Numbered from the stretch's first letter, positions 24,322 through 49,123 are shown. The stretch: DNA of 64,000 nucleotides from Peptostreptococcaceae bacterium (GCA_030532705.1 JAUNKR010000001.1:1-64000); one strand, 5' to 3'. Made by a program: numbers and translations. Notes: generated by a model not told the origin, from the sequence alone.

Positions 24322-25251
24322 TTGTCCATGCAAAATATTATGAAAAGATTTCTTGATCGGCATGCTTCCGATCTTCAAATGTCAAAGGATGAATTGTTCA
24401 AAAGCATCGCCGCCTCCGAAGGTCGGATCCTGTTTTGCGAGACGATCGATGTTGTTATGCCGATGTTGCTCGACATCACAAACTGCGAACTTGCCGCTTC
24501 GATGGGTGCCGATGCGCTCATCCTCAATCTGTTCGATCTGGAAAACCCGAGCATCATGGGGCTGCCTCCCTGCGAACCTCAGGATGTGATCCGCAAGGTC
24601 AAAGAGCTGACCGGTCGGATCGTTGGACTCAATCTCGAGGCGGTGGACGAGGTGCTCGATAAAAATACGATGTGGGGAAATATCAGTGGCCGCAAAGCGA
24701 CTGCCGAGAATGCGGAAAAGGCAGTACAAATGGGAGCGGATTTTATCGTGCTTACGGGTAATCCCGGCATCGGCGTGACCAATGAGCATATCATCAAGAG
24801 CCTGCGCGCTATCCGGCAACGTCTCGGTGAAAAGATCCTTCTGATCGCCGGTAAGATGCATGGGAGCGGGATCCTTTCGGAATGTGGACAAAACATCATC
24901 ACCGCAGAGGATGTCCAAAAATTTGCGCAAGCCGGCGCTGATGTCATCTTGCTTCCGGCTCCGGGCACCGTTCCCGGCATCACGACGGAATATGTAAGAC
25001 AGCTCGTTGAAACCGCACATGCCCAAGATAAACTCACGATGACCGCGATCGGAACTTCTCAGGAGGGTGCCGACAAGGATACGATCCGAGAGATCGCGCT
25101 GATGTGCAAAATGACAGGCACCGACATCCACCACTTAGGCGATGCCGGTTATATCGGCATGTCTCTGCCCGAAAATATCATGGCATACAGCATCGCGATC
25201 CGCGGGATACGCCATACTTATCGACGGATCGCCGCATCGATCAAAAGATAA
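24322..25251 (+). CDS. TIM-barrel protein, DUF7916/PEP-mutase-like annotation
   Basis: 309 residues. It has repeated beta-alpha units such as ITNCELAASMGADALILNLFD, GADFIVLTGNPG and AGADVILLPAPGTVPG, and ends with HHLGDAGY. Such proteins are labelled haloacid-dehalogenase-like or PEP phosphonomutase-like in databases, but they are TIM barrels of unknown reaction and are often near PTS genes; none is seen here. The best start is a TTG at 24322, eight bases after AAAGGA; ATG codons at 24328 and 24340 are farther from it. Family call is from memory of the sequence pattern. Confidence 0.55.
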   Translation: MSMQNIMKRFLDRHASDLQMSKDELFKSIAASEGRILFCETIDVVMPMLLDITNCELAASMGADALILNLFDLENPSIMGLPPCEPQDVIRKVKELTGRIVGLNLEAVDEVLDKNTMWGNISGRKATAENAEKAVQMGADFIVLTGNPGIGVTNEHIIKSLRAIRQRLGEKILLIAGKMHGSGILSECGQNIITAEDVQKFAQAGADVILLPAPGTVPGITTEYVRQLVETAHAQDKLTMTAIGTSQEGADKDTIREIALMCKMTGTDIHHLGDAGYIGMSLPENIMAYSIAIRGIRHTYRRIAASIKR

Positions 25252-25672: not shown

Positions 25673-26239
25673 ATGTTAGTAAAGTTTTTTTCGGATCGGA
25701 TCAATAATAATCCGAACCTCTCATTGTCTCAAGACGAATTGAATATCATGCGCGATCTCTACCTAGAGCTGGCAAACAACTCTTCGTTGGAATCAATGGA
25801 TGATTATGTCCAGCATGGAAATACATCGACCCTGCTTCACTCGGTTGCAGTCGCACATTTCAGCTATCTGTTTGCGAAAGCATTTCGGATCAAGGTCGAT
25901 GCGCAGTCGCTGATCATCGGCGCATTGCTCCATGACTACTATTTATACGACTGGCATGTGTACGACAGCTCGCATTCATTGCATGGCTTTCGACATCCGT
26001 TCACTTCTTTACGCAATGCCAAAAAAATTCGCAAGCTGAATTCGATCGAAGAAAATATCATCGTGCGTCATATGTTTCCGCTGATACCGATCCCTCCGGT
26101 CTATCGGGAGAGCCTGATCGTCTGTCTGGTGGATAAGATATGCTCGCTCTATGAGACCTTCAGTCGCCAGCCATATCGTGATCTTTCATGTGAGGCGCTG
26201 GTGCTCAAAACACAGAAGCAGATCTCTGCAAATATATGA
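25673..26239 (+). CDS. HD-domain phosphohydrolase
   Basis: 188 residues. The metal-binding H...HD...H...D pattern is visible: LLHSVAVAHF, ALLHDYYLYDW, HMFPL and CLVDKICS. It is typical of small HD superfamily proteins in Clostridia, possibly acting on nucleotides. GCAGGGGGAAG precedes the start at 25673. It is transcribed alone from the promoter just upstream. The substrate is unknown. Confidence 0.75.
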   Translation: MLVKFFSDRINNNPNLSLSQDELNIMRDLYLELANNSSLESMDDYVQHGNTSTLLHSVAVAHFSYLFAKAFRIKVDAQSLIIGALLHDYYLYDWHVYDSSHSLHGFRHPFTSLRNAKKIRKLNSIEENIIVRHMFPLIPIPPVYRESLIVCLVDKICSLYETFSRQPYRDLSCEALVLKTQKQISANI

Positions 26240-27855: not shown

Positions 27856-28923
27856 CTATTTCGCTTTCCCTTCTTCCAAAACTTTTAACAGAAGATCCAC
27901 ATACTCCTTCCCTACTTGTTTCCCGATTGAATCATAGACTCCTTGTGATTTTTCAAGAATCTGATCAACAAAGCTTTCATCAAATTCGACTAATTCCATT
28001 CCACCTTCAATCAACTTATTTTTATTTTGCTCATTGATATCTTCCAATTCTTTTTCAATTTCTGATGCAACCTCTTTTACGGTTTCTTTCAAGACTTCTT
28101 GATATAACGGATCCAGACCGTCTAATCTTTCTGCATTGATCAAAAATTGATTGCAGTATAGAATATGATGTGTCATGATCAAATAATCCTGTACCTCATG
28201 GAAATTTGCACCTACATTTGTATCGGTTGCATTTTCTTGCGCATCAACGAGCTTCTGCTGAAGAGAAACATATACTTCAGGCCATGGAAGCGGGGTTGGA
28301 GATGCTCCTAATGATTGCCAAAAGGCAATATGGTTTTGATTCTCCATTGTCCTGATTTTCAATCCGCTAAAGTCTTCGATCTTTTCAACTTTTTTATTGG
28401 ATGTCATTTCTCTAAATGTAGCACCTTGCATATAATGTAAAACATACATATTTTTGGACTTATATGCTTCATTGATTTTATCGAAAAATTCACTTTGGTT
28501 TAAAGCGTAGTCAATGGATTTTGCATCATATTTTGCAAATACCATCGGGAGATCAAAAATTGCGACCTCAGGAACAAAAGAAACCGTCTGAGCTGTCTGT
28601 GCAATTACAAAGTCAATATCGCCGGCAAGCATTTGTGCTTGAAGCTCTTGGTCGTTTCCCAACTGACTGTTCGGGAAATAGTCGATCTTAAACTTTCCAC
28701 CGGTCTTCTCATTCACTTTTTCCGCTACCAATTCACCGAAACGTTGTGCTACAGAACCTACGCCGGAGTTATCTGCGCCAATCAGCGTAATCGGCTCAAG
28801 CGAGGCAAATTTACCTTCCGTATCTCCACCCGAGTTGCCTCCATTCTCTTGAGATTTACCGCCACATCCTACTAATGCCAGCATCAAAAACAATGTCATC
28901 CATAAACTGATTATCTTTTTCAT
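27856..28923 (-). CDS. dctP: TRAP transporter substrate-binding lipoprotein DctP
   Basis: 355 residues. Signal peptide with lipobox LVGC, so a lipid-anchored external receptor as expected in Bacillota. The body has DctP features: FKIDYFPNSQLGNDQELQAQMLAGDIDF and the GLKIRTMENQNHIAFWQSLGASPTPLPWPEVYVSLQQ segment that carries the substrate-carboxylate-binding arginine. TRAP receptors nearly always bind organic acids. GAGGAGG precedes the start. It is last in the long minus-strand operon and follows dctM by 17 bases. The ligand is presumably the substrate of the enzymes encoded upstream. Confidence 0.9.
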   Translation of the reverse strand: MKKIISLWMTLFLMLALVGCGGKSQENGGNSGGDTEGKFASLEPITLIGADNSGVGSVAQRFGELVAEKVNEKTGGKFKIDYFPNSQLGNDQELQAQMLAGDIDFVIAQTAQTVSFVPEVAIFDLPMVFAKYDAKSIDYALNQSEFFDKINEAYKSKNMYVLHYMQGATFREMTSNKKVEKIEDFSGLKIRTMENQNHIAFWQSLGASPTPLPWPEVYVSLQQKLVDAQENATDTNVGANFHEVQDYLIMTHHILYCNQFLINAERLDGLDPLYQEVLKETVKEVASEIEKELEDINEQNKNKLIEGGMELVEFDESFVDQILEKSQGVYDSIGKQVGKEYVDLLLKVLEEGKAK

Positions 28924-28940
28924 TCGATCCTCCTCTCGGT

Positions 28941-30224
28941 TTATAAGAAAACTAAACTAACCCATGGAATATAAGTTATAATGAACAATGCAATCGCAAA
29001 AGAAATAATAAAAGGTACCGCTTTTTTTGCTACAGTCATCGGTGGAGTATCCGCTAAAGTCCCTGCCACAAACAAATCCAGTCCAAATGGTGGCGTTGCA
29101 AGTCCGATGGATAAACAACATACCATGATCACCCCGAAATGTACGGGATGCACTCCCATCCGCTCAACTGCCGGTAATAGGATCGGCGCCAATATCACGA
29201 TCGCCGGCCCGGTATCCATGACCATTCCTAACAAAAGGAATATTATAACGATACCTGTCAGTACAGCGATCCCTGAGCTGAAATTGTTTAATATAAAACC
29301 TTCGATCAACGCCGGAGCCTTCGCCAGTGCCAACACTCTACCAAATGCAGTAGCAAATGCCAGTACAAAACAAAGCGGAGCATAAGTTTTTACAGATTTG
29401 GCAAGAAAAGGTACGATGTCTTTTGCTTTGAAGGATTTATAGACGAACAAAGAAACAAACAAAGCGTAGAACACCGAAATACATGCTGCCTCTGTCGGAG
29501 TCACCTTCCCGGAATAAATTCCACCTAATACGATCACCGGCGACAATAGCGCCCAAAAACTCTGGGCAAAAAGTTTTCCAAGCCCTTCAGATCGGATCTC
29601 CTGCATTTTAGCGCGGATTTTTCCCTTGTCTTCGCCTTTTCTTTTGCAATAAACGATCGCATATAGCATCATTGCGCCTCCGATCAATATCCCCGGAAGA
29701 ATGCCTCCCAGAAACAGCGCCCCTGTAGAAACACCGGTTGCTAATGAATACAACACAAAAGGAATCGACGGCGGAATGATAACGCCTAATCCCCCTGCCG
29801 TTGCAACCATACCTGCCGACCAAGTCTTATCATAGCCCATCTCGACTAAAAAAGGGATTGTCATTGCACCTACCGCTGCAGTAGTTGCCGGACCCGAGCC
29901 GGAGATCGCTCCATAAAACAGGCAAGTCATAATCACGGCACATGGAATTCCACCTGTAAAGTTTCCAATAAAATACGCAAAAAATGTAAATAGACGCTTC
30001 GAAATTCCTCCTTCCGCCATCAATACCCCGCCCAAAATAAATAAAGGAACCGCCAAAATCGGTGTTGTGTCTGACCCGGAAAAAGTATTCGCAATGATTT
30101 GTTGCATTGAGCTTCCCGTTCCGCCAAGCATCAAGGGTGTCATCGCTCCCAAAACCATACTCATTCCTACCGGAAGTGCCAGTACAAGCCCTGCCATGAA
30201 TGCCAAAAAGATCCACAATGCCAT
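28941..30224 (-). CDS. dctM: TRAP transporter large permease DctM
   Basis: 427 residues and about twelve hydrophobic helices, normal for DctM. Conserved GAISGSGPATTAAVGAMTIPFLVEMGYD and a C-terminal PPFGLDLFVAGTLADTP segment are characteristic of the family. It forms the Na+-coupled channel with DctQ. Its start overlaps the last base of the dctQ stop, showing translational coupling. Confidence 0.92.
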   Translation of the reverse strand: MALWIFLAFMAGLVLALPVGMSMVLGAMTPLMLGGTGSSMQQIIANTFSGSDTTPILAVPLFILGGVLMAEGGISKRLFTFFAYFIGNFTGGIPCAVIMTCLFYGAISGSGPATTAAVGAMTIPFLVEMGYDKTWSAGMVATAGGLGVIIPPSIPFVLYSLATGVSTGALFLGGILPGILIGGAMMLYAIVYCKRKGEDKGKIRAKMQEIRSEGLGKLFAQSFWALLSPVIVLGGIYSGKVTPTEAACISVFYALFVSLFVYKSFKAKDIVPFLAKSVKTYAPLCFVLAFATAFGRVLALAKAPALIEGFILNNFSSGIAVLTGIVIIFLLLGMVMDTGPAIVILAPILLPAVERMGVHPVHFGVIMVCCLSIGLATPPFGLDLFVAGTLADTPPMTVAKKAVPFIISFAIALFIITYIPWVSLVFL

Positions 30225-30793
30225 TACTTTCCACCTCCTTTAGTCAACTCTTTTTCTTGTTCTGTCGATTCGATCTCCTCCAATGCCTCTTTGAGTGTTG
30301 CTTCCATCGTCGAATCGATCTTGATATTGAAATTTTTTATATGCTTTACGATCACTTGAACCGTTCGTACACATGCCAGACCATACCCTAAGATCGTTGA
30401 ACAATACATTAGCCACATCGGAATATGCATAGCCGGTGAAAATTGTCCTGTACCTCTCAATTTTACGGTATATGCTATCGCATATCGAAACAGCACGAGA
30501 AATAGTACCAACATGATCAAATCCATAAATATCTCATTTATTTTTCTCAGTTTCTGCGGCAAGAGATCCATCACGACCCCGACACGAAGCATATTGCCCT
30601 TTTTTATCGTATATCCGATCGATAAGAAAACCGACCAGATATAACAATATCGCGAAAATTCTTCCGGCCATGTCATTGATGCAAAAAAAGTTCTGGCAAT
30701 GATCTGTGCCATCATCACGATAGATATTGACGCTAATAATAGAACCAACAACGCTTCTTCAAAATGTTCGTCCAACTTTTTTAAAAACGACAT
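30224..30793 (-). CDS. dctQ: TRAP transporter small permease DctQ
   Basis: 189 residues, four membrane helices (about 15-35, 48-68, 88-108, 128-148) and the usual FSRYCYIWSVFLSIGYTIKKG motif. The C-terminal tail is charged. It pairs with DctM. It follows the AroE-like gene by 20 bases. GGGAGG precedes the start. Confidence 0.88.
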   Translation of the reverse strand: MSFLKKLDEHFEEALLVLLLASISIVMMAQIIARTFFASMTWPEEFSRYCYIWSVFLSIGYTIKKGNMLRVGVVMDLLPQKLRKINEIFMDLIMLVLFLVLFRYAIAYTVKLRGTGQFSPAMHIPMWLMYCSTILGYGLACVRTVQVIVKHIKNFNIKIDSTMEATLKEALEEIESTEQEKELTKGGGK

Positions 30794-30813
30794 GATGCCC
30801 TCCCTTCTCTCTA

Positions 30814-31686
30814 TTATCCGCTATGGGATAGGATTGCAAAAAGTTCTTGCTTCATCACTTCAATCGGCGCTTTTTCTCCACTCCACAGCTCGATCTGTTC
30901 CGCCCCTTGATGAAGTGACATTCCCAAACCGTTCATAATGCGACAACCTGCATCCTCCGCCTCCATCAAAAATCGAGTCTTTGACGGATTATAGGTCGCA
31001 TCGAAGCATAATTGTCCCGATCGTAAGAACTCTTTTGGGATCGGTGTCTGATCAGCTGTAGCCGCCATCCCGATACCGGTATTGTTCATCACGACCTGAG
31101 CGTTTGCCACTGCCTTTTTCAATTCATCTTTATCCAAAGGGTCGAACAGCTCCGCGACCGGAGAGAAGTTATTGTTGATGTCATCAGCAAGCTCTTTCGC
31201 CGCCTGATAATCCACATCCCCAATATAGATCTTTTTTGCTCCGTTGTATGCCAATACGCTTGAGATCGCTCGCCCGGCTCCGCCGGCTCCCATGCAAAGA
31301 AAAACATTGTCGGAAAGAACAATATCCGGGGCTTCTTCTTGCAGCGAGCGATAAAAACCTGTCCCATCTGTATTGTATGCAATCAATTTACCATCTCTAC
31401 ATACAATCGTATTGCTTGCATTCATTTTTTGACAGAGGGGATCCAATTCATCCACATATTTCATCACTTCCACCTTATTGGGTTTAGTGACTGCAAATCC
31501 AGCAAAATTCATATATCTCAAGCCATTGATCACATCACCGAGATGCTCATTATCTACCTCCGTATAAAAGTAGAGCATATTGATACGACTTGCCCGATAG
31601 GCGGCATTTTGCATTCTTGCAGCATAGGATTGCGATAAAGGTTTCCCCAGCAATGTCACCATTTTTGTATTAATATTGACCGGCAT
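30814..31686 (-). CDS. Shikimate/quinate dehydrogenase-like enzyme (AroE family)
   Basis: 290 residues. It keeps the catalytic Lys (AVTKPNK), the Asn of NASNTI and the Asp of YNTDGTGFYRSL, and the NAD(P) motif CMGAGGAGRAI. The N-terminal substrate motif is GKPLSQSYAARMQN in place of the common SxSxxMHN form, so the ring substrate may differ from shikimate. It lies inside a catabolic TRAP operon, not with aromatic biosynthesis genes, so it probably oxidises a hydroxyl group on an imported cyclic acid. AGAGAGG precedes the start. Confidence 0.78.
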   Translation of the reverse strand: MPVNINTKMVTLLGKPLSQSYAARMQNAAYRASRINMLYFYTEVDNEHLGDVINGLRYMNFAGFAVTKPNKVEVMKYVDELDPLCQKMNASNTIVCRDGKLIAYNTDGTGFYRSLQEEAPDIVLSDNVFLCMGAGGAGRAISSVLAYNGAKKIYIGDVDYQAAKELADDINNNFSPVAELFDPLDKDELKKAVANAQVVMNNTGIGMAATADQTPIPKEFLRSGQLCFDATYNPSKTRFLMEAEDAGCRIMNGLGMSLHQGAEQIELWSGEKAPIEVMKQELFAILSHSG

Positions 31687-31703
31687 CCCTCTCTCCTTTC
31701 TAT

Positions 31704-32525
31704 TTACTCTAGCTCATTGCATTCCATGAACTGCTTCGCTCTTCTCAGACATTCTCTTGCATGTCCGAGTTTCCCTCTCTGTTGAACCTCTTTTGTATTC
31801 GGCAGCTCGATAGAAATATTCCTTTTCGGTAAAGCCCTGAGGATCTTTGTGATATCCACTCCTCCATCTCCCGGATATAATCGCCCTTCCCTCGTGATCT
31901 CGATCATTCGCTCCTCTGATACAGAAGGAGTATCTGAAGGAGCATCACATAAATGAATCATTCGGAATCGCTCAGATGGAAGTTTTTTTACCGCCTCAAG
32001 GTCCATTTGCGAACGAAATGCATATAAGGTATCCACAAGCAAATGGGCATTATCACAGTCCGTTTGATCTAAAAACTCGATCGCCTTTTGGAGGTTGTTC
32101 ACTTTTGAAAAAGAAACAAATTCCAAGTTAACATAAAGCCCATATTTTTGAGCCATACTACAAATTTTCTTAAAATCTCTACGAGCAATCTCCCACTGAT
32201 CTGTCCAGATACTTGAGATCACATCTTTTGCTCCAAGTTCTGCTGCCGCTTCAAAGGCAGATTCGTATTTCGTAATATCAAGGTCATCTCGAACTCGAGC
32301 AAGCTCTATGTCCGATATCTCGATCCTATATTCAAGGAGAGCATCTTTGATATTCTGAAAAAGCACTTTATCCTGATCAAATTGAAACAAAGGCTCATTG
32401 GGCAAATACATGGGGATCGGTCTTAGGCTGACCATGTCATAGCCGGCCTGTGCAGCGATTGCGATCTGATCGACGGGATTTGTTCCCGGGATCGTCAAAT
32501 ATGCTAAGGAATATTTTCTTTCCAT
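31704..32525 (-). CDS. Sugar phosphate isomerase/epimerase-type TIM barrel
   Basis: 273 residues of the AP endonuclease 2-like TIM-barrel fold. Strand motifs are visible (AGYDMVSLRP, DIELARVRDD, VNLEFVSFSKV, HLLVDTLYAF, MIHLCDAPSDT, YPGDGGVDI), with Glu, Asp and His residues placed like the metal ligands of IolE and dehydroshikimate dehydratases. Start at MERKYS with AAGGAGG upstream; it lies only ten bases after the ThDP gene. In this context an isomerase or dehydratase acting on the product of the AroE-like enzyme is plausible, but the reaction is inferred. Confidence 0.7.
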   Translation of the reverse strand: MERKYSLAYLTIPGTNPVDQIAIAAQAGYDMVSLRPIPMYLPNEPLFQFDQDKVLFQNIKDALLEYRIEISDIELARVRDDLDITKYESAFEAAAELGAKDVISSIWTDQWEIARRDFKKICSMAQKYGLYVNLEFVSFSKVNNLQKAIEFLDQTDCDNAHLLVDTLYAFRSQMDLEAVKKLPSERFRMIHLCDAPSDTPSVSEERMIEITREGRLYPGDGGVDITKILRALPKRNISIELPNTKEVQQRGKLGHARECLRRAKQFMECNELE

Positions 32526-32535
32526 GGAGACCTCC

Positions 32536-34353
32536 TTATTTATGGGATCCGGAATGATCGGGAACCTCATACTCTCCTTTTTCGTTTCTTCTTACCTTCC
32601 CGTTTACTACGCTTGCCTTCGGGGTGTAGATATCATTGATATTCCAGTTCCCCGGCGTAGGAACTCCGATATTTTCCATCGGCACATCCAAAAGGAACGG
32701 TTTATTGGATCGAATAGCTTCTTCCAAAACTCCTTTAAACTCATCCGCTGACGAGATCTTAATTCCTTCCACACCATAAGCTTTTGCTACCTCTGCCCAA
32801 TTTGGCGTATATGGATTTCCATCCGGCGTTGTAAATACCGTACCGAATTTTGTTTTATAATTAGAATATTCAAGCCCTGCGATCGTACCGAATGCGGAGT
32901 TGTTCATAACGATCCAGATCACGGGGATATTTTGCTCCACTGCCGTAGCTAAGGAACTCGGATTGATCCCAAATCCACCATCTCCGACCAATGTGATCGT
33001 AACTCGATCCGGTGCAGCAAGTTTTCCTCCAAGAAGTGCAGATGCCCCAAATCCCATCGTTGCCAATCCCGAGCTGTGATGAATTGAGCCCGGAACGGTG
33101 ATCGGAAACTGTTGCGCCACACCATTTTTATTCCAGCCAACGTCGGTAAAAATCAAAGTATTCTCCGGTATGACCGCCTTTACATCTCTCAAAATACGCT
33201 GAGGCGTCATCGGGAAACGTCCTTCATTTGCAATCTCTTTTGTTGAATCACGAAATTTCATCCGACTTTCTAAAATCTCTGCTCTAAGCCCGGATCGTTG
33301 GATACCATCCGGCTTAATTTTTTTTGCCTCTTCCAAGATCTGACCCAGTGCTTCTTTCAGATCACCGATCGCGCCAATGCTCACCGGATAATTTCTCCCA
33401 ATCTCAGTCGGATCGATATCGATCTGTAAAAATTCTGTTTTGGACAGATCAAAGGTCGTTCCCGGATACCAGCTTGAACTATCCGCTTCGGCAAATCTTG
33501 TACCGAGCCCCAACAATATATCCGCGTTGGCGGTAAATTGATGGGTGGACTCCAGACCCCAAAAACCTGTCTGTCCGAGCATTAACGGATGATCATCCGA
33601 CAGACACCCCTGACCCATCAAAGTTCTGGAAACCGGTATATCCAAAAATTCAGCAAGATTTTGAAGCTCCTGCGATGCACCGGAAAGAAGAATCCCCCCG
33701 CCTGCATGAAGAACAGGCCTTTCCGCTTCGATCAATTTTTGAGCAATCGCCTTTGCTGCGGCAGGTGCAATTGCCGGTCGTATTGTAACGGAACTGTCTT
33801 TATAGGTTCGAGCAAATAATTCTTCATCGATTTTTTCGGAAAACACATCCATCGGCACTGATACGAGAACCGGCCCCGGTCTTCCGCTCTCCGCCAAACG
33901 AAAAGCTTTATCCAGTATCTCCGGCATCGCTTCCGGGTCATCTACACGCCATGCTCTTTTTACGATAGGTTTAAGGATATCGATCTGAGAAGCATCCGAA
34001 TGAAGGTTGACTTCCTGGTGAGGATGTTTCCCATAGTAATATCTTGGTACATCGCCCGATATAACAACCATCGGAATCGAATCAAATGATGCGTTGGCAA
34101 CGCCGGTTACTGTATTCGCAAGTCCCGGCCCCAAGTGGCATATCACTACGCCTGCTTTCTTTTTTACACGCGCATAACCATCTGCCGCCATCGTTGCCAA
34201 TTGCTCATTACGAAATGAAATATATCGAATGTTTTTTGATCTGGATAATGCTTCCAAAAATCCGATCACCGTATGACCCGTAAGTCCAAAAATGTATTCA
34301 ACCTTCCGTCTTTCCAAATAATCTACCATTAAATCAGAAACGAGCTTTTTCAT
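32536..34353 (-). CDS. Thiamine diphosphate-dependent enzyme (acetolactate synthase-like fold)
   Basis: 605 residues with the three ThDP-enzyme domains. The PYR domain has the catalytic glutamate in FRNEQLATMAADGYAR, the central domain follows, and the PP domain has GDGGFGINPSSL ending with a conserved NN (GDG-x-NN cofactor motif). It is longer than acetolactate synthases and has no small regulatory subunit nearby. Relatives of this type include decarboxylases, carboligases and ring-opening diketone hydrolases. Between the TIM-barrel and CoA-acylating dehydrogenase genes it most likely yields an aldehyde. GGAGGAG precedes the start. Confidence 0.78.
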   Translation of the reverse strand: MKKLVSDLMVDYLERRKVEYIFGLTGHTVIGFLEALSRSKNIRYISFRNEQLATMAADGYARVKKKAGVVICHLGPGLANTVTGVANASFDSIPMVVISGDVPRYYYGKHPHQEVNLHSDASQIDILKPIVKRAWRVDDPEAMPEILDKAFRLAESGRPGPVLVSVPMDVFSEKIDEELFARTYKDSSVTIRPAIAPAAAKAIAQKLIEAERPVLHAGGGILLSGASQELQNLAEFLDIPVSRTLMGQGCLSDDHPLMLGQTGFWGLESTHQFTANADILLGLGTRFAEADSSSWYPGTTFDLSKTEFLQIDIDPTEIGRNYPVSIGAIGDLKEALGQILEEAKKIKPDGIQRSGLRAEILESRMKFRDSTKEIANEGRFPMTPQRILRDVKAVIPENTLIFTDVGWNKNGVAQQFPITVPGSIHHSSGLATMGFGASALLGGKLAAPDRVTITLVGDGGFGINPSSLATAVEQNIPVIWIVMNNSAFGTIAGLEYSNYKTKFGTVFTTPDGNPYTPNWAEVAKAYGVEGIKISSADEFKGVLEEAIRSNKPFLLDVPMENIGVPTPGNWNINDIYTPKASVVNGKVRRNEKGEYEVPDHSGSHK

Positions 34354-34361
34354 ATCTCCTC

Positions 34362-35828
34362 CTATTTTTCTCTTTCCGGATCGTAGAATTCACCAAATAA
34401 CTCTTGATCGCTCGGGCGATCTTCCGGAATGGCTTTAGATACCCAAGTGACGTTCATGTAATGGTGCAAGTGCACATTTTCCGAAGTTGCATTTCCTCCC
34501 CATGTTCCGCATCCAATACTTGAAGTCATCGGCATCCCATTAGTAAAGGATCCCGCATTGGATTTTGATTGTGGTTGTCTAACCATGATACGTCCAACAT
34601 GAGCCTGAAGAGCTAGACTATGGATATTATCTTCACTAAAAGAAAATATACCAACCGAGTGACCCTTTCCACCTACTTCGTGGATCGCCATCACGATATC
34701 TACCGCATTTTGAAATTCTCCTTCATATTTATGAATTGCCAAAAGAGTTGTCAATTTTTCACGACACCATACATCTTCTATTTTGGAAGTATATGAACCG
34801 GTCCCTTTTGCTATCAAAAACTTTCGATCCTCCGGTATTTGAAAACCTGCCAATTCCGCCATTTTTTGTGGAGACTGTGCCACTGAATCCGCTAAACGAT
34901 GGGCTTCTTCGTCCCACATGATCTTCCCTACCGCCTTTTGTTCTTCTTCGCTGAGAAGGTAACCTCCTACATTGATCAGCTCCTCGATCGCTTGATCATA
35001 GATGCTTTCATGGATAACAATATTTCCATCCGCAGAACATCCCGATCCGAAGTCCGAAGTCTTTGACAGCATCGTATTATATGCCGCTTGATGTAAATCT
35101 TCCTTCGCCGTCTCGTCCCAGATCATAGTCGCATTTCCCGCACCCACACCGTAAGCCGGGGTTCCTGAATGATAAGCGCGTCTTACGACACCTTGACCTC
35201 CGGTTGCAATAACCAGATCACATTTTGTATTAAGAGCCTCAGAAAGCGCCTTATTCACTTTTGCTTTACCTTGTCCAAGGATTTGGATCAGATCTTCCGG
35301 TGCACCGACTTCTCTAAGGCCTTCTCTCATCAGCTCGATTGTTTTTCCTCCCGTCTTGACTGCACGAGGATGTGGAGAAAAAATGATCGCATTTCTCGCT
35401 TTCAGTGCATAGATCGCATTCCCTGCCGGTGTCAAGTCCGGATTGGTTGCAGGAACAACGCAAGCGATGACTCCGACCGGTTTCCCATATTTAACGATCC
35501 CTTTCTCCGGGATCTCCTCGATGATACCAACGCTTTTTTGTCTTAATGCATCTCGAAGCACTCCGCGTATTTTGTATTTCTTGTTTTCTCGGCTGACAAA
35601 ATCCCCCATTTTACTTTCCTCGATACTCATCGAAACAAGCTCTCGAAAAGTTTTTGAATTTGCTACTTTCCAAGCGATCGCTTGGATCGCGCGATCAATA
35701 TCTTCCTGTGGCCATTTTTCAAATTCTTTTTGTGCCGCATCTGCTTTTGCAAATTTTTCTTCGATCTCCGCAATCTGATCTTGATCTAATTTTTCATAAG
35801 CTTCTTTCATTGAATTCATTCTACTCAT
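34362..35828 (-). CDS. CoA-acylating aldehyde dehydrogenase
   Basis: 488 residues. The sequence follows the AdhE/EutE/SauS clade: GVIACVVPATNP, FSPHPRAVKTG, the nucleophile cysteine in DFGSGCSADGN, and the typical tail SSIGCGTWGGNATSENV. These enzymes turn an aldehyde plus CoA and NAD+ into an acyl-CoA. No alcohol dehydrogenase domain is fused. It lies eight bases before the ThDP gene, so it probably takes the aldehyde made there. GGAGGATTAACAG precedes the start region. Confidence 0.82.
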   Translation of the reverse strand: MSRMNSMKEAYEKLDQDQIAEIEEKFAKADAAQKEFEKWPQEDIDRAIQAIAWKVANSKTFRELVSMSIEESKMGDFVSRENKKYKIRGVLRDALRQKSVGIIEEIPEKGIVKYGKPVGVIACVVPATNPDLTPAGNAIYALKARNAIIFSPHPRAVKTGGKTIELMREGLREVGAPEDLIQILGQGKAKVNKALSEALNTKCDLVIATGGQGVVRRAYHSGTPAYGVGAGNATMIWDETAKEDLHQAAYNTMLSKTSDFGSGCSADGNIVIHESIYDQAIEELINVGGYLLSEEEQKAVGKIMWDEEAHRLADSVAQSPQKMAELAGFQIPEDRKFLIAKGTGSYTSKIEDVWCREKLTTLLAIHKYEGEFQNAVDIVMAIHEVGGKGHSVGIFSFSEDNIHSLALQAHVGRIMVRQPQSKSNAGSFTNGMPMTSSIGCGTWGGNATSENVHLHHYMNVTWVSKAIPEDRPSDQELFGEFYDPEREK

Positions 35829-35844
35829 CTGTTAATCCTCCTGA

Positions 35845-36756
35845 CTATCTTATCAAATCTTTTGAGCGACCTGCTTTAAGAACATACGAATCGGTGGCAT
35901 GACCTACAAAATATTGCATTTCTCTCGCAACATCCATCAGTTTTAGCAAGTCGATCCCGGTATATACACCCATTTCATCCATCATATGAACGACATCTTC
36001 CGTCGTTACATTACCAGCTGCGCCCGGAACGAAAGGGCAACCGCCAAGTCCTCCTAAGGATGCATCGAATTGTGTAATCCCGGCTTCCATTGCCGCTAAT
36101 ATATTCGCCATTCCCATGCCTCTCGTGTTATGGAAGTGAAGCCACCACCTGACTGCCGGATATTTTTTTTGAACCATCGTGCATAGATCATACACCTGAT
36201 TGGGAACAGCCATTCCGGAGGCATCGGATAGAGAGATCTCGGATACGCCCACTTGCAAATAAGCTTCAATAATCTTTTCTACTTGCTCAATCGGTGTTCG
36301 CCCCTCCCAAGGAGAAGCAAAAGGCATCGAGATCGACCCGGATACTTCCAGACCATTCTCTCGAGCAAGCTGAACATTTTCTTCAAATCCGGCAACCGAT
36401 TCTTCCGGCGTCTTGTTGATATTCGCCAAATTGTGTGCGAGACTTGCAGAAACATTTAGTTTTATCTTCTTGCATCCACAAGCAATAGCCCGGTCCACTC
36501 CTTTTTTGTTTGCTACCAGTGCACGAAACTCGGTTCCCTCTTTTTGTGAGACCATCCGGTAAAGATCATCCGTATCCGCCATTTGAGGTACGGCTTTCGG
36601 GTTCATAAAAGATCCAAGCTCGATCACTTTCACCCCTGCTTCCATCAACTTTTCAACCAGTTGATATTTTTGCTGAGTTTCTAAAATTTTGGACTCATTT
36701 TGCAAGCCGTCCCGAAGACCTACCTCACAAATCGTCACTTTACTTGGAAGCTTCAT
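35845..36756 (-). CDS. HMG-CoA lyase-like enzyme
   Basis: 303 residues, DRE-TIM metallolyase family. It has EVGLRDGLQNES at the N-terminus, the metal-binding HFHNTRGMGMAN, and the cysteine loop GGLGGCPFVPGAAGNVTTED, all as in 3-hydroxy-3-methylglutaryl-CoA lyase. It should cleave a 3-hydroxyacyl-CoA with a tertiary alcohol into acetyl-CoA (or similar) and a ketone. First gene of the minus-strand operon behind the LysR-controlled intergenic region. The start at 36756 follows AGGAGG; an earlier ATG is too close to it. The substrate may be a relative of HMG-CoA. Confidence 0.85.
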   Translation of the reverse strand: MKLPSKVTICEVGLRDGLQNESKILETQQKYQLVEKLMEAGVKVIELGSFMNPKAVPQMADTDDLYRMVSQKEGTEFRALVANKKGVDRAIACGCKKIKLNVSASLAHNLANINKTPEESVAGFEENVQLARENGLEVSGSISMPFASPWEGRTPIEQVEKIIEAYLQVGVSEISLSDASGMAVPNQVYDLCTMVQKKYPAVRWWLHFHNTRGMGMANILAAMEAGITQFDASLGGLGGCPFVPGAAGNVTTEDVVHMMDEMGVYTGIDLLKLMDVAREMQYFVGHATDSYVLKAGRSKDLIR

Positions 36757-36799
36757 CCTCATCCTCCTTTTCAATTTTCTGAATATTCCCTTTGTCTAA

Positions 36800-36992: not shown

Positions 36993-37880
36993 ATGACTCT
37001 TCAACAGTTAAAATACTTTATTGAAACGGCAAATACGCTCCATTATACAAGAGCTGCCGAAAATCTCAATGTATCCCAACCAAGCCTGAGCCATGCTCTT
37101 AATGAATTGTCCAAAGAGCTCGGAGCACCATTGTTTCAAAAGCTGGGAAAGAAAATTTCATTGACCGAATATGGTGAAGCCTTTTTGCCTTATGCCGAGA
37201 GTGCGATCTATATTCTCGCTCAAGGAACAAACCAGATAAAAAATATGCTCAGCCCTTTGGGCGGCTCGATCAATTTAGGATATATCTATAGCGTAAGCTT
37301 TGATATCATCCCACAGATCATCGACAAATTTTATCATCATATGGGCAACCGAAACATCCACTTTAATTTTCAGGTCAATATGACTCAATCCTTAATACAA
37401 GCTCTTCATGACGGAATTCATGATGTTGTGATCGCCCCGAAGCCTCTAAGTCCCGATTCCTCACTGGAATATGTGCCCGTATCCGAGCAAGAGCTTTATC
37501 TGCTGGTATATAAGGGACATCCTTTGGAAAGCAAAGAATATATCACTCCAAAAGATCTGCGGGAAGAACGTATGATCCTCATAAACAAAAAATGTGATCT
37601 GTACCATCAAACAGAGGCCTTTCTCAAAAACAACAACATTGTTCCAAAAATTGCTTTTGTCGTCGATGAGTGTAATTCGATGGCTGCATTTGTCAGTGCG
37701 CAGCTCGGTGTCGCGATCATGCCTAAGATCCCTTCTCTTGAAAATTATGGGATAACAGCAGTTCCTTTTGAAGGGCATATGATGAAAAGATCCATCTGTT
37801 TGATCTGGAATAAAAATCATAAAGTAACACCGGCTATCCAAAGTTTCTTGAATTTCTATAAAGACGATCAACAAAAATAA
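36993..37880 (+). CDS. LysR-type transcription regulator of the TRAP/catabolic operon
   Basis: 295 residues. The N-terminal winged helix is canonical (LQQLKYFIETANTLHYTRAAENLNVSQPSLSHALNELSKELG) and the rest is the two-lobed ligand domain (about 90-290). It is divergent from the catabolic operon, 236 bases away, and so most likely responds to the imported acid or an intermediate. GAGGGA precedes the start. A hairpin terminator follows. Confidence 0.9.
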   Translation: MTLQQLKYFIETANTLHYTRAAENLNVSQPSLSHALNELSKELGAPLFQKLGKKISLTEYGEAFLPYAESAIYILAQGTNQIKNMLSPLGGSINLGYIYSVSFDIIPQIIDKFYHHMGNRNIHFNFQVNMTQSLIQALHDGIHDVVIAPKPLSPDSSLEYVPVSEQELYLLVYKGHPLESKEYITPKDLREERMILINKKCDLYHQTEAFLKNNNIVPKIAFVVDECNSMAAFVSAQLGVAIMPKIPSLENYGITAVPFEGHMMKRSICLIWNKNHKVTPAIQSFLNFYKDDQQK

Positions 37881-38194: not shown

Positions 38195-38869
38195 TTAGCT
38201 CAATTCCACGACCCGATCGCAGATTTTATCGATGAGCGCTCGATCATGGCTGATGAACAGGTAGGTCAATCCTCGCTCCTCTTTGATCTTTTGGAGCAAC
38301 CGAACGATCTTTGCTTGGGTGGATACATCGAGCATCGAAGTCGCCTCGTCGAATATGACGATCTCCGGCTCGACCATCAGCGCACGGCAGATCGCAAGGC
38401 GCTGGATCTCTCCTCCGCTGATCTGGTGCGGATAGCGTCCCAAAAGTCCTTGGGGCAGGTCGAGCTGTTGCATCCATTCGGCAAGCTCCTGCTTATAATG
38501 ATCGCTTTTACGAAGGAGAGATACCGCTTCTTTGATGCTCTTGTTGAATTTGATGCGGGGATCAAAAAACTCTTCGGGTCTTTGGGCGATAAATTGCACT
38601 TTTTTCCGAAATTCCAGTTGCTGTGCTTTGCTAAAATGGCGAACTTCTTTACCCATAAAAAGCACTTTACCGGAATCGATCGGCGTTAGGCAGAGCAATA
38701 TTCTAGCCATTGTGCTTTTCCCGCTCCCCGAAACACCTACAAGCCCCAATGTTTCGCCACGATAAACGACCAGGTCTCGCCCTTTGGAAGCGACGGTCCG
38801 ATTTTTCCCAAAGGCATTCTTATAGGTCTTGTGTACCTGTATCGCCTCTAATACGATCTCTCTATTCAT
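38195..38869 (-). CDS. ABC importer ATPase (DppF/NikE type)
   Basis: 224 residues. Walker A GVSGSGKST, signature QISGGEIQRLA, Walker B IVIFDEATSMLD and the switch HDRAL are complete. It is a bit shorter than usual, lacking the C-terminal extension (oligopeptide-transporter C domain) seen in DppF. The start at 38869 overlaps the upstream ATPase gene stop by eight bases. It is last in the operon of the B12-riboswitch-controlled transporter. It energises the DppB/C-type permeases. Confidence 0.85.
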   Translation of the reverse strand: MNREIVLEAIQVHKTYKNAFGKNRTVASKGRDLVVYRGETLGLVGVSGSGKSTMARILLCLTPIDSGKVLFMGKEVRHFSKAQQLEFRKKVQFIAQRPEEFFDPRIKFNKSIKEAVSLLRKSDHYKQELAEWMQQLDLPQGLLGRYPHQISGGEIQRLAICRALMVEPEIVIFDEATSMLDVSTQAKIVRLLQKIKEERGLTYLFISHDRALIDKICDRVVELS

Positions 38870-39779
38870 ACAAAAAACACTCCACGCTCCCATCCTCTGT
38901 TTTTACAAGCGGCGGCATCTCTTCAAAACAGCGCTCCGTCCGCTTGGGACATCTCGGCGCAAAAATACAGCCCGCTCCGACCGAAGTATCGGCATCTTGG
39001 ATCGGTTCCAAAGAATGTTCGGGCATCGAGTCGATCAGCGCTCTGGTGTAAGGATGTTTTGGATTCTGCAAAACCCGACTTCCTCTTTCGAGCACGCGTC
39101 CACTATACATCACCAGAATCTCATCGCAGATCTTTTCGGCAAGATTGATGTCATGGGTGATCACGATCATGCCCTCCACGCCCAGATCCTGCAAGCGAAC
39201 GAAGGTCTCTGCGACCTGATCGCATAACTCTTTGTCCAGACCCTTGGTCGGTTCATCCGCAATGATCCACTTCGGCTCACAGCATACCGAGATCGCAGAC
39301 AGTGCGCGCTGTTGCATCCCGCCGCTCAATTCGTAGGGATAGGATTCGAGGATTTTTTTCGGATCAGCAAATCCCATGCTTTGCAGGATCCTCTCCGCCT
39401 TTTCTACGATCTCCGCCTTCTTATATTTCACGGACAAAGCCTCATAAAGCTGTTTTTTGATCTTTCGTGAGGGATTGAGCGCTTCCTGTGGGCTCTGCGG
39501 GATAAAGCCGAGCTGTTTGCCGAGCAGGGACTGTTGCTCTTTGCTTCGGTATCCGAAATCCATCTCCTCAAAGAAAAAGTCTCCGCTCACCTGTGCGTAA
39601 GGCGGAAGGATCCCGAGCATCGCCATGCCGAGCACCGATTTGCCCGATCCGCTCTCTCCGATGATCCCCGTGATCTTCTTTTTGGGGAAAGAGACGGACA
39701 GATCATGGAGCACCTCGACCCGTCGATCAGGGAGTACAAAGTCGATCTTCAAATGTTCGACTCCGATCGAATGGTTCAT
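38862..39779 (-). CDS. ABC importer ATPase (DppD/NikD type)
   Basis: 305 residues. Walker A GESGSGKSV, signature ELSGGMQQRA, Walker B WIIADEPTKGLD, and the C-terminal oligopeptide/nickel transporter extension with CIFAPRCPKRTERCFEEMPPL (a cysteine motif that in relatives holds an iron-sulfur cluster) are all present. Works with the second ATPase, whose start overlaps its end. Second-last gene of the operon. Confidence 0.88.
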   Translation of the reverse strand: MNHSIGVEHLKIDFVLPDRRVEVLHDLSVSFPKKKITGIIGESGSGKSVLGMAMLGILPPYAQVSGDFFFEEMDFGYRSKEQQSLLGKQLGFIPQSPQEALNPSRKIKKQLYEALSVKYKKAEIVEKAERILQSMGFADPKKILESYPYELSGGMQQRALSAISVCCEPKWIIADEPTKGLDKELCDQVAETFVRLQDLGVEGMIVITHDINLAEKICDEILVMYSGRVLERGSRVLQNPKHPYTRALIDSMPEHSLEPIQDADTSVGAGCIFAPRCPKRTERCFEEMPPLVKTEDGSVECFLYE

Positions 39780-39788
39780 ATCTACCTC

Positions 39789-40613
39789 CTATTGCACCTC
39801 GATACTGCGCACATCGGTCTTGTCACGCAGATGGTCGCCCAAAATATTGATGGAAAACAACACCAAAAAGATAAAGACTCCCGGGATGATGATCAGATAA
39901 GGGGCACTGCGATAGTGTAATCTTGCATCGCTGATCATCACGCTCCAATCAGGTGTCGGCGGTCGAATGCCGAGCCCCAGATAGCTCAGAGCCGAAATGG
40001 TGAGGATGCAGCGACCCAGCCGAGTAGCGAAAAGCACGCTTACATTGGGCAGGATATTAGGGATGATGTGGAAAAAGATCAGCCTCATATCGCTTGCGCC
40101 GAAGCATTTGAGTCCTTCGATAAAGGATTCTTTGCGTACCTTGAGCGTTTCGGTACGCACGACCCGGGCAAAACCTGCCCATGAGGTGATGACCAAAGCG
40201 ATGACGAGACTTTTGGCGCCCGGCCCCATCACACCGACGATCGCCAGGATAAAGCAGGTGCCGGGCAAGCCTTGAAAAATATTGATGCCGATGCTGATCA
40301 GCCAGTCGATCTTTCCGCCGAAGTAGCCTGCAAGCACGCCCACCAAAAGACCGAAGCCCATCGACAGTCCGGTGGCAAGCAATGCTAAAACGATGGATAC
40401 CCGACCGCCATAAAGGATCCTGCTCAGCATATCCCGTCCGAGTGAGTCGGTGCCGAACCAATGCTCTGCAGAAGGCGGTTGTAATTTGATGTCCATATTG
40501 ATCAGATTCGGATCATAGGGCGCGATAAAGTCCGCAAAGACATTGACCAGAACGACGGTTGTCAATATCACGATCGCCACCCAAAATAAAAGATCCTTGG
40601 CAGTTTTTTTCAT
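39789..40613 (-). CDS. ABC importer permease (DppC/NikC type)
   Basis: 274 residues, about six helices. It has the N-terminal APYDPN..PPSAEHWFGTDSLGRDMLSR motif of the family and the EAA-like loop GFARVVRTETLKVRKESFIEG. It forms the pore with the DppB-type partner and ends nine bases before the ATPase gene. The start abuts the permease gene upstream. Confidence 0.9.
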   Translation of the reverse strand: MKKTAKDLLFWVAIVILTTVVLVNVFADFIAPYDPNLINMDIKLQPPSAEHWFGTDSLGRDMLSRILYGGRVSIVLALLATGLSMGFGLLVGVLAGYFGGKIDWLISIGINIFQGLPGTCFILAIVGVMGPGAKSLVIALVITSWAGFARVVRTETLKVRKESFIEGLKCFGASDMRLIFFHIIPNILPNVSVLFATRLGRCILTISALSYLGLGIRPPTPDWSVMISDARLHYRSAPYLIIIPGVFIFLVLFSINILGDHLRDKTDVRSIEVQ

Positions 40614-41549
40614 CTATTCCTCCCCCAATCGAACCTTCGGACTGATCCATACCCCAACGATGTCCACCAAAAGACTGATCACGACAAAGATGATCCCGGT
40701 GACGAGAACATAGCCTTGAAGGGCTGGAAAATCTTTGGCACCGATCGCCTCGATCGCATAGCTTCCGATACCGGGGATCGCGAAGATGCTTTCCACGACA
40801 ACGGTCCCACCGAGCACGCCACCCAAAAAATTCCCGATCAAAGGCAGGATGGGTGCGATCGCATTGGGCAACGCATTATCGATGATGAGCTGCTTTTTGC
40901 TCAACCCTCTCGTCACTGCGGTGATATAGTAGGATCTGCCGAATTCCGCCAACAATGCCGCTCGCATCAAACGAGCGATCGTTGCCGACGCGATCCCCGA
41001 GAGCGTCACTGCCGGAAGGATCATATATTTTAGACCGCCATATCCGCTGGTCGGTAATAATTTGAGCTTTTCGGAAAAGATCAGGATCAAGATCAGGCCG
41101 ATCCAAAAAGCCGGAAGCGAAAGGACGGCATTGAGCAGGATCATCAATCCCCGATCGATCGTCGTATCTTTGAACCAGGCAGCCAAGATGCCTAAACCGA
41201 TGCCAAAAAAGCAGGTCATAAAAATTGCATAACCTGCTAAATGGATGGTTTTTGGCAAACGACGGCCAAGCTCTCCCGAAATGGGGCGCCCATTGGTATA
41301 GGATCTGCCGAGATCGCCTTTCAGTATCTTTCCGAGCCAATCCAAATATTGTACGGAATACGGTCGATCGAGCCCCAGCTCTTTTTCCATCCGCTCGATC
41401 TGCTCAGGCGTGGGTTCATAGCCCCCTTGACTGAGTGCGATCTCTGCCGGATTGCCGGGCGAAAGGATGCCTAAAAAAAAGGCGATCACACTGATCCCCA
41501 CTAGAGTAGGGATCAGCGCGATCATTCTGCCGATAAAATATTTTTTCAT
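40614..41549 (-). CDS. ABC importer permease (DppB/NikB type)
   Basis: 311 residues with six helices and a conserved N-terminal MKKYFIGRMIALIPTLVGIS. The EAA loop GRSYYITAVTRGLSKKQLIIDN is present. Its ATG overlaps the stop of the binding-protein gene (TAATG), so translation is coupled. It supplies the second channel subunit. Confidence 0.9.
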   Translation of the reverse strand: MKKYFIGRMIALIPTLVGISVIAFFLGILSPGNPAEIALSQGGYEPTPEQIERMEKELGLDRPYSVQYLDWLGKILKGDLGRSYTNGRPISGELGRRLPKTIHLAGYAIFMTCFFGIGLGILAAWFKDTTIDRGLMILLNAVLSLPAFWIGLILILIFSEKLKLLPTSGYGGLKYMILPAVTLSGIASATIARLMRAALLAEFGRSYYITAVTRGLSKKQLIIDNALPNAIAPILPLIGNFLGGVLGGTVVVESIFAIPGIGSYAIEAIGAKDFPALQGYVLVTGIIFVVISLLVDIVGVWISPKVRLGEE

Positions 41550-43138
41550 TAACTGTTCCAACCAACTTTTGGCAGATCGATGCCATAAAGTTTTGCATCA
41601 TATCCGCTCAACTGTTTGTTATATGCGACCACGGTCATATCGTTGAACAACGGGATGATCGGAAGATCGACGGTCGAGATCTCCTGGATCTGATCGTAAA
41701 GCTCTTTTCTCTTCTCAATATCGATGCTCTCCATCGCCTCTTTCATCAGTGCATCCACTTTGTCACTCTGATAGCCGATGCTGTAGTTCTTATTGTGGTC
41801 ACCGGTCACTACCATAAATCTTCTGAAGATCGTAGAAGCCTCGGAGTTTGAAAGACCTTGCTGCATTCTTGCAATGTCATAATCTCCCGACTTCATCATC
41901 TCTTTCATATTTTTCATTTCCATCGGCTCAAGCACACAGTCGATCCCGATCTCTTTGAGCCAGGAAGAGATCAATTCCGCCTCACCTTTTTGTGCCGCTT
42001 CTTTTGCGTTGTAAAGATATTTCACCTCGATGCGTGAATCGCCGAGCACTTCTTTTGCAAGCTCTTTTGCTTTTTCCATATTTTCATCGACCGCGATCTC
42101 TTTGTAGAAAGGTGTCGAGTAGTTCAAAATATTGGTCGTCGGACTTCCGTAGCCGAAGTAGATGTCATCGACAAGCTGCTTACGGTTGAGCACCATACTG
42201 ATCGCCTGACGCATTCTGACATCGTTGAAAGGCTCTTTTTTTCCATTGACGGTCAAGAATCGGATCATGGTCGATTTGGAAGTCGATACTGCAAGATTTT
42301 CGTCTGCCTCCGCCTCTTTTGCAAGCGCTGCAGGGATCGCATTCAGGTCGATCACACCCATGATCTCGCCGGATCTCAGTGCGGAGAATCTGGTATCTGC
42401 ATCAGGGATCACTTTGATACGGATCGATTTTGCCATCGCTTTCTCACCATAGTAATCTTCGTTGCGCTCCAACAGAACATGCTGATCCAGCTCGTTTTCT
42501 ACGATCTTGAACGGACCGGTCCCGATCGCGAAGCCGTTGAAATTTCCTTTTTCGTCAAAATTCTTCGGGCTGTAGATCGGGCTTCCGAAGTTTACCATAT
42601 TGTAAAGCAAGGTCGGCATCGGCTCGCTGAATATCAATTTGAAGGTAAGATCGTCCACCTTCTCGTATTTTTTGAGATTTGGATAATGTGCATCGATATC
42701 CAATGGATAGAAGGATGATTTTTTGACTTCCATCTTCATTCGGTTGAAGTTTGAGATCACCGCATCGGCATTGAGCATTTCGCCATCGTGGAATTTGACC
42801 CCTTCACGAAGCTTGAAAGTCCATTCCTTGCCATCCGGACTCATTTCCCAAGACTCTGCAAGCCCTGCGACCGGATTTGCATTATCGTCCTGTGTGATCA
42901 AAGGCTCCCAAACATAGAGGATCTTACTGCAATAGTATCCGTCCTCATTGCCCGGTGCCAAGTTACGATATGCGGCAAGCACGATCTCCGCATCTTTGTC
43001 CATCTGCTGTGTTTGCTCATTTTGTTGTGCAGGCGGCTGCTCTGCCTGCTCCGCCTTCTGACCGCATCCTGACGCAATAAGTGCCAGCATCATCACCAAC
43101 AGAAGACTCAGCCTCTTCAAATTATTTTTCTTCAACAT
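41549..43138 (-). CDS. ABC importer substrate-binding lipoprotein (SBP family 5)
   Basis: 529 residues. Signal peptide with lipobox IASGC, then a linker and the family-5 fold (VAGLAESWEMSPDGKEWTFKLREGVKFHDGE is the signature region). Family members bind peptides, nickel chelates or opines. The operon is under a cobalamin riboswitch and encodes a methyltransferase, so a cobalt or nickel chelate or a corrinoid-linked ligand is more likely than a peptide; that is inference. Start follows AGGAGG. Confidence 0.85.
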   Translation of the reverse strand: MLKKNNLKRLSLLLVMMLALIASGCGQKAEQAEQPPAQQNEQTQQMDKDAEIVLAAYRNLAPGNEDGYYCSKILYVWEPLITQDDNANPVAGLAESWEMSPDGKEWTFKLREGVKFHDGEMLNADAVISNFNRMKMEVKKSSFYPLDIDAHYPNLKKYEKVDDLTFKLIFSEPMPTLLYNMVNFGSPIYSPKNFDEKGNFNGFAIGTGPFKIVENELDQHVLLERNEDYYGEKAMAKSIRIKVIPDADTRFSALRSGEIMGVIDLNAIPAALAKEAEADENLAVSTSKSTMIRFLTVNGKKEPFNDVRMRQAISMVLNRKQLVDDIYFGYGSPTTNILNYSTPFYKEIAVDENMEKAKELAKEVLGDSRIEVKYLYNAKEAAQKGEAELISSWLKEIGIDCVLEPMEMKNMKEMMKSGDYDIARMQQGLSNSEASTIFRRFMVVTGDHNKNYSIGYQSDKVDALMKEAMESIDIEKRKELYDQIQEISTVDLPIIPLFNDMTVVAYNKQLSGYDAKLYGIDLPKVGWNS

Positions 43139-44004: not shown

Positions 44005-44057
44005 TCAAGAACAGGTCAAAACACTCCCTCTATCGCTCGTAGAGTATTGGAGTCAAA

Positions 44058-44202
44058 TATAGGCAGTTATTCTGGCTCAAGCATCATCAAGCATTTTCCC
44101 TTCCCGACTTTCGTCAGTGGATCCGAAAAGCTCTCCTCTTTTACAGCGGCGGGACCGCGCGGGATTTGCACCCGACTTCTCATTTCATCCGAAGAACCTA
44201 TA
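44058..44202 (-). promoter_or_regulatory. Cobalamin (AdoCbl) riboswitch
   Basis: Minus strand has the B12-box and core elements in order: GGTGCAAATCCCGCGCGGTC, CCCGCCGCTGTAA, CCACTGACG, GGGAAGG and GAGCCAGAATAACTGCC. The closing P1 stem is TATAGG/CCTATA at the ends. This is the standard aptamer controlling cobalamin synthesis, cobalt uptake or B12-independent enzymes. It regulates the methyltransferase-ABC transporter operon. Confidence 0.93.
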
Positions 44203-44222
44203 TTTGTATTCAATTCTTTTAC

Positions 44223-47964: not shown

Positions 47965-48101
47965 AATACCTCCTTGCATCGATCCTCGCATCCGCGGATG
48001 CGCCGGATCCTGCCAATTCTGCTGTGCTCTTCGAGCCCTCGCTCCACACAACGCGATCTATACACACAGTAGCACGTTCCTTATTTCCAAGGACGTCGCT
48101 A

Positions 48102-49010: not shown

Positions 49011-49123
49011 ATTCCCTCCCAAATTACTGCCAAAAATCCCGCATCCTCATCAAAAACATATGCATTTGATCTCTTTAAGACGCGTTTTTTCGGACGATCG
49101 TTTTCATAAATAATATTTCTTTC

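Follow-up and report, generated by a model that had tools for sequence, protein, structure and literature searches.

An operon of eight genes at positions 27856-36756 of a 64,000-nucleotide stretch of Peptostreptococcaceae bacterium DNA (GCA_030532705.1 JAUNKR010000001.1:1-64000; the whole stretch is called the window here) very probably encodes the anaerobic uptake and ring cleavage of quinate, with no aromatic intermediate and no oxygen. We are confident that its five-enzyme module serves quinate or shikimate catabolism in general, and consider it likely that the exact route leads from quinate to acetyl-CoA and 2-oxoglutarate. With somewhat less assurance, though still on balance, we propose a new oxygen-independent, non-aromatic pathway in which quinate (or shikimate, with AroD acting as a hydratase) would pass through a diketone hydrolase to (R)-homocitryl-CoA and from there to acetyl-CoA and 2-oxoglutarate. 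The observations behind these proposals are the gene content of the operon, its conservation, the co-occurrence of its genes, links to dehydroquinate enzymes and the replacement of the lyase in one genome.

Composition and conservation of the operon

The initial annotation had described eight co-directional genes here, and their order, strand and coordinates all hold: the genes occupy the minus strand between about 36756 and 27856, are packed tightly and agree with their Pfam families. The divergent regulator and the operon, in transcript order, are as follows.

36993-37880, plus strand: LysR-type regulator, divergent from the operon (Pfam HTH_1 and LysR_substrate)
35845-36756, minus strand: 3-hydroxy-3-methylglutaryl-CoA (HMG-CoA) lyase family enzyme, proposed homocitryl-CoA lyase (Pfam HMGL-like; NF004283, 323.1 bits)
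34362-35828, minus strand: CoA-acylating aldehyde dehydrogenase, proposed to convert homocitrate semialdehyde to homocitryl-CoA (Pfam Aldedh)
32536-34353, minus strand: thiamine diphosphate (ThDP)-dependent enzyme, proposed ring hydrolase of the 3,4-diketone (Pfam TPP_enzyme N, M and C)
31704-32525, minus strand: triosephosphate isomerase (TIM)-barrel enzyme, proposed dehydratase from 3-dehydroquinate to the 3,4-diketone (Pfam AP_endonuc_2)
30814-31686, minus strand: AroE-like dehydrogenase, proposed quinate (and shikimate) dehydrogenase (Pfam Shikimate_dh_N and SDH_C)
30224-30793, minus strand: small permease DctQ of a tripartite ATP-independent periplasmic (TRAP) transporter (Pfam DctQ)
28941-30224, minus strand: TRAP transporter large permease DctM (Pfam DctM; TIGR00786 above cut-off)
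27856-28923, minus strand: TRAP solute-binding protein DctP with a lipoprotein-like N-terminus (Pfam DctP; TIGR00787, 184.7 bits, cut-off 175)

The lyase start at 36756 is an ATG shortly 3' of AAGGAGG and agrees with the starts of homologues; by these signs it is a better start than the TTG at 36774 that opens the listed reading frame. For the TIM-barrel gene, an alignment makes 32525 the probable start, not 32570. Every operon gene falls in a broad NCBIfam family, and the ThDP enzyme, the aldehyde dehydrogenase and the TIM-barrel enzyme lie under all function-specific cut-offs shown.

Do these genes form a genuine unit? The comparison of operon conservation that the initial annotation had proposed was made by taking the ThDP enzyme as query against the GTDB collection, fetching 80 loci (1.2 Mb) and labelling their genes by the window proteins. 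All five enzyme genes occur together in 33 of the 80 loci, in 13 gene arrangements; counting only loci no shorter than 12 kb, 31 of 57 have the full set. Hosts of the module include a Peptostreptococcaceae metagenome-assembled genome, Tissierellia, Lutispora, Anoxynatronum, Lachnospiraceae, Oscillospiraceae, Acidaminococcus and rumen Synergistaceae, and full-set loci span several Firmicutes lineages and Synergistota. Because the set persists while gene order shuffles, we infer that it is kept together by selection. A sample of 391 genomes of the class had ThDP orthologues in eight and TIM orthologues in seven of those eight and nowhere else; in the eighth, the ThDP gene is truncated by a contig end. 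Recurrence in 33 shuffled loci and the confinement of the TIM-barrel enzyme to ThDP-positive genomes exceed what chance association would give.

A syntenic divergent LysR gene recurs in L016, L022, L023, L025, L026, L028 and L029 as well as other loci, and the transporters range from TRAP to TctABC, at times with two TRAP sets. An IolG-like Gfo/Idh/MocA dehydrogenase, which may be an alternative first enzyme of the pathway, adjoins the module in nine loci (L029, L019, L021, L023, L034, L036, L059, L094 and L095), and L094 carries it with a zinc alcohol dehydrogenase and without AroE. We looked for a recurrent esterase or another neighbour that would reveal the substrate; the neighbours scanned were transposases, peptidases, transporters and housekeeping genes. 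A methylisocitrate-lyase-like protein of the PrpB/PEP mutase superfamily, under the PrpB cut-off, adjoins the module ThDP or HMGL gene in L034, L035, L043 and L100.

Substrate, lyase and proposed route

Which compound enters the module? The AroE-like protein of the window scores 198.8 bits against TIGR00507 (cut-off 200.2), a cut-off that most of its module relatives exceed; K71, D107, N92, T67 and Q260 are invariant, and its gene is the sole AroE detected in the window genome. Within or beside the module of seven fetched loci (L022, L025, L032, L034, L043, L046 and L093) lies a protein of about 258 amino acids (cluster c11) that is a type I 3-dehydroquinate dehydratase, AroD, the five members scanned scoring 194-237 bits against a TIGR01093 cut-off of 139. 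At one gene per 2.5 Mb, the 1.2 Mb fetched would be expected to hold 0.49 such genes, against the seven loci observed. These loci are partly non-independent, and shikimate kinase is among the neighbours in L022, L025 and L093; part of the linkage may reflect a location shared with biosynthetic genes. AroD also lies beside the ThDP gene, or in the same cluster, in three separately found genomes (G418, G509 and G681). In G418 the AroD of the module is an additional copy, since a separate AroQ is retained elsewhere. G509, the source of L098 and L102, encodes type I AroD three times, with aldehyde:ferredoxin oxidoreductase genes near its module-type genes; L102 additionally holds a class III CoA-transferase.

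Neither EPSP synthase (AroA) nor a dehydroquinase (AroD or AroQ) was found above cut-off in five module genomes, the window's among them (G000, G004, G391, G167 and G121; 72%, 84%, 94%, 98% and 99% complete, respectively), and their AroA matches (about 70-110 bits) score as MurA, a related protein, would be expected to. The module AroE is present in the first four and was not found in G121, whose module contig stops inside the TIM-barrel gene. A biosynthetic role for AroE was rejected on these four AroE-bearing genomes, two of them only 72-84% complete. Because such genomes have no detected enzyme interconverting dehydroquinate and dehydroshikimate, we read the core module as starting at quinate; AroD is best read as an addition where shikimate is also used.

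The other end of the route is suggested by the lyase. The operon enzyme belongs to the HMG-CoA lyase family, well above the NF004283 cut-off of 246, and its metal and catalytic residues R21, D22, H213, H215, N255 and C246 (numbered from the TTG at 36774) are invariant in 38 homologues. Other residues, such as R84, S183 and W210, are invariant across the module homologues and missing from the HMG-CoA lyases aligned, and genomic context argues for a substrate other than HMG-CoA. HMGL was not found in the G418 module or in the rest of that 97%-complete genome, where the best match (3e-8) covers a partial stretch. In its place stands a citryl-CoA lyase gene that overlaps the module AroD by 11 bases and whose product exceeds the equivalog cut-off (NF004864, 347.5 bits versus 261). 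Citryl-CoA lyase is unrelated in fold to HMG-CoA lyase; each enzyme splits a tertiary-carbinol 3-hydroxy-acyl-CoA into acetyl-CoA and a keto acid. This replacement in one genome independently suggests that the thioester cleaved is citryl-CoA-like.

In the ThDP enzyme, E50, H27 and the GDGG...NN motif are conserved in 81 sequences; the IolD model lies outside the best 25 of its 53 NCBIfam matches, with no direct comparison of the two proteins, and the open-access literature gave no function for BbmA/CsmA, its nearest solved relatives. The aldehyde dehydrogenase fits the CoA-acylating (EutE/AdhE/SauS) group, as its three top models are all CoA-acylating and the cysteine of GSGC(264)S is conserved in 64 sequences. 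E150, D180, H206 and E255 of the TIM-barrel enzyme (numbered from 32570) are invariant and form an E-D-H-E metal site. Its AlphaFold2 model (pLDDT 92) has Lmo2234, IolI and QuiC as nearest Foldseek neighbours, and the protein scores 22.5 bits against the IolE model TIGR04379 (cut-off 290).

How might these activities connect? In the LysR-linked, TRAP-fed operon, the AroE-like enzyme would oxidise quinate (C7H12O6) at C3 to 3-dehydroquinate (C7H10O6), and the TIM-barrel enzyme would remove the C5 hydroxyl and the C4 proton to give 1-hydroxy-3,4-dioxocyclohexane-1-carboxylate (C7H8O5). IolE acting on inosose and QuiC acting on 3-dehydroshikimate perform the same kind of elimination. The ThDP enzyme would then hydrolyse the C3-C4 bond, so that C3 ends as the aldehyde and C4 as the carboxylate of homocitrate semialdehyde (C7H10O6); IolD and cyclohexane-1,2-dione hydrolase carry out such ThDP-dependent hydrolysis of cyclic 1,2-diketones. 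With CoA, the aldehyde dehydrogenase would form (R)-homocitryl-CoA, from which the HMGL-family lyase would release acetyl-CoA (C2) and 2-oxoglutarate (C5H6O5). Quinate C1 carries a hydroxyl, a carboxyl and two CH2 arms, like the carbinol of homocitrate, and (R)-homocitryl-CoA is the intermediate of homocitrate synthase, which shares the DRE-TIM superfamily with HMGL. By our own reasoning, the substituent ranks at C1 would stay constant, so that (1R)-3-dehydroquinate would give (R)-homocitryl-CoA, and carbon and redox would balance: quinate + CoA + 2 NAD(P)+ -> acetyl-CoA + 2-oxoglutarate + 2 NAD(P)H. The 2-oxoglutarate would enter glutamate fermentation. Adjacent urocanase and arginase-family genes (window 45937-49022, minus strand) suggest histidine degradation to glutamate.

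The initial annotation had suggested that a quinate-like cyclic acid is processed by the AroE-like, TIM-barrel and ThDP enzymes and that the lyase splits the acyl-CoA then formed. Three independent findings support this idea: AroD within modules, AroE in genomes where the shikimate pathway went undetected, and the substitution of citryl-CoA lyase for HMGL. The named intermediates and end products are added here.

Alternative explanations

Several points weigh against the quinate pathway. The reactions, their order and the imported ligand are drawn from sequence and analogy. The nearest solved relatives of DctP, mostly sialic-acid or unassigned DctPs, give no pointer to quinate, and assignment of a ligand from them was dropped as uninformative. 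The TIM-barrel gene is absent from the available stretch of L032, L033 and L099, where it could be scattered or replaced by an alternative enzyme, and AroD was not found in most module loci. In the carboxylate-binding Ser-x-Ser motif of the AroE-like protein, S20 is kept and the second serine is Ala22 in the window subfamily. Against solved structures, the ThDP enzyme scores 285 bits to BbmA (the best), 258 to acetolactate synthase and 171 to cyclohexane-1,2-dione hydrolase, and so is closer by score to acetolactate synthase than to the diketone hydrolase. Finally, the citryl-CoA lyase replacement is a single case, the other 14 genomes of the G418 class holding no further module of this kind.

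What else could the module do? The ThDP enzyme might act on 3-dehydroquinate itself and cut its C3-C4 acyloin bond, with the TIM-barrel enzyme isomerising or dehydrating the product later and a second fragment other than 2-oxoglutarate. ThDP lyases do act on alpha-hydroxyketones and the TIM family contains many isomerases, but dehydration of a ring that bears a 3-keto-4,5-diol has its precedent in IolE and QuiC, and a citryl-CoA lyase in the lyase slot suits homocitryl-CoA at least as well; we regard this variant as unlikely. The alanine in the Ser-x-Ser motif, and the existence of AroE-family enzymes with non-shikimate substrates such as 5-ketofructose reductase, would fit another cyclic or branched hydroxy acid with a tertiary carbinol, the AroD linkage then reflecting a related compound. 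This we find improbable, as canonical Ser-x-Ser AroEs occupy the modules of L046, L081, L090 and L095 and AroD recurs.

It is very unlikely that the route is aromatic, with the TIM-barrel enzyme serving as a QuiC/AsbF-like 3-dehydroshikimate dehydratase that yields protocatechuate and the other enzymes serving something else. The similarity to QuiC that favours it is weak (36 bits to NF042435, cut-off 1200, although that model describes a two-domain protein whose second domain is missing here). Genomes without AroD or AroQ would be unable to turn quinate into 3-dehydroshikimate, only the labelled families are widespread in the loci, no ring dioxygenase, aromatic decarboxylase or aromatic-ring reductase appeared among the scanned neighbours, and the ThDP, aldehyde dehydrogenase and lyase genes would be left without a role. 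Metabolism of sulfonates (sulfoacetaldehyde), acetolactate or glyoxylate is scarcely credible. SauS is indeed the top match of the aldehyde dehydrogenase (NF047625, 428.8 bits), and the ThDP enzyme matches acetolactate synthase, Xsc and Gcl, but the curated cut-offs are widely missed: 600 for SauS, every acetolactate synthase cut-off shown (397.8 bits against 538 for TIGR00118), 620 for the Xsc-type model (280 bits) and 791 for Gcl (296 bits). These readings were rejected on that basis; moreover, no sulfonate gene was seen, and AroE, AroD and the lyase would go unexplained. A ThDP enzyme of plain acetolactate or sulfoacetaldehyde type would have counted against the idea of the initial annotation; the sequence scores of the ThDP enzyme and the aldehyde dehydrogenase speak against such a type.

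Neighbouring features and known systems

Elsewhere in the window, a cobalamin riboswitch (44045-44216, minus strand; Rfam RF00174, 99 bits) lies upstream of SBP_bac_5/ABC dipeptide-type transporter genes (38195-43138). A DUF7916 protein (24322-25251, plus strand; 418 bits) is followed by a gene labelled HD by eye (25673-26239); outside the window, L016, from the same genus, is the only contig with this pair close to the operon.

Plants contain abundant quinate and shikimate, both free and in chlorogenic-type esters, and these acids reach the rumen, the gut and sediments. Bacteria fermenting hydroaromatic compounds are known, for example Ilyobacter insuetus (Brune et al. 2002, a reference of PMC10512730). 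Open-access literature yielded no genetic pathway for hydroaromatic fermentation, and open-access full texts yielded no published description of a pathway such as ours, subscription journals being outside this coverage. If correct, the pathway would explain the growth of fermenting anaerobes on hydroaromatic plant acids, and enzymology would gain at least two predicted new activities, a lyase for the catabolic cleavage of homocitryl-CoA and a dehydratase that forms the diketone from 3-dehydroquinate. The presence of the module in rumen Synergistaceae, Acidaminococcus, Lachnospiraceae, Oscillospiraceae and clostridial metagenome-assembled genomes provides a marker and named isolates.

How does the proposed pathway compare with known systems? 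Like myo-inositol catabolism (IolG, IolE, IolD, IolB/C/J and IolA), it would combine a dehydrogenase, a TIM-barrel dehydratase, ThDP-dependent diketone hydrolysis, carbon-carbon cleavage and CoA acylation, and the TIM-barrel enzymes share the AP_endonuc_2 superfamily. Unlike it, the module appears to use different families at each step, has no kinase or aldolase genes and is proposed to form the acyl-CoA before cleavage by an HMGL-type lyase. With the aerobic quinate/shikimate pathway (QuiA/QuiB/QuiC, Qsu), which runs via protocatechuate, it would share a dehydrogenase for quinate and shikimate, a dehydroquinase and a QuiC-superfamily TIM-barrel dehydratase, whereas the module would lack an aromatic intermediate and dioxygenase, would direct the TIM-barrel enzyme to 3-dehydroquinate and adds the ThDP enzyme, aldehyde dehydrogenase and lyase. 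Cyclohexane-1,2-dione hydrolase (PDB 2pgn), whose function is established, likewise converts a cyclic 1,2-diketone to an oxo acid by ThDP-dependent hydrolysis, although the module enzyme scores only 171 bits against it, compared with 285 for BbmA and 258 for acetolactate synthase. The module lyase has its fold family in common with HMG-CoA lyase and homocitrate synthase, keeps the HMGL catalytic residues and would share its reaction type with citryl-CoA lyase; it differs from HMG-CoA lyase in its proposed substrate, homocitryl-CoA, and in module-specific residues such as R84, S183 and W210.

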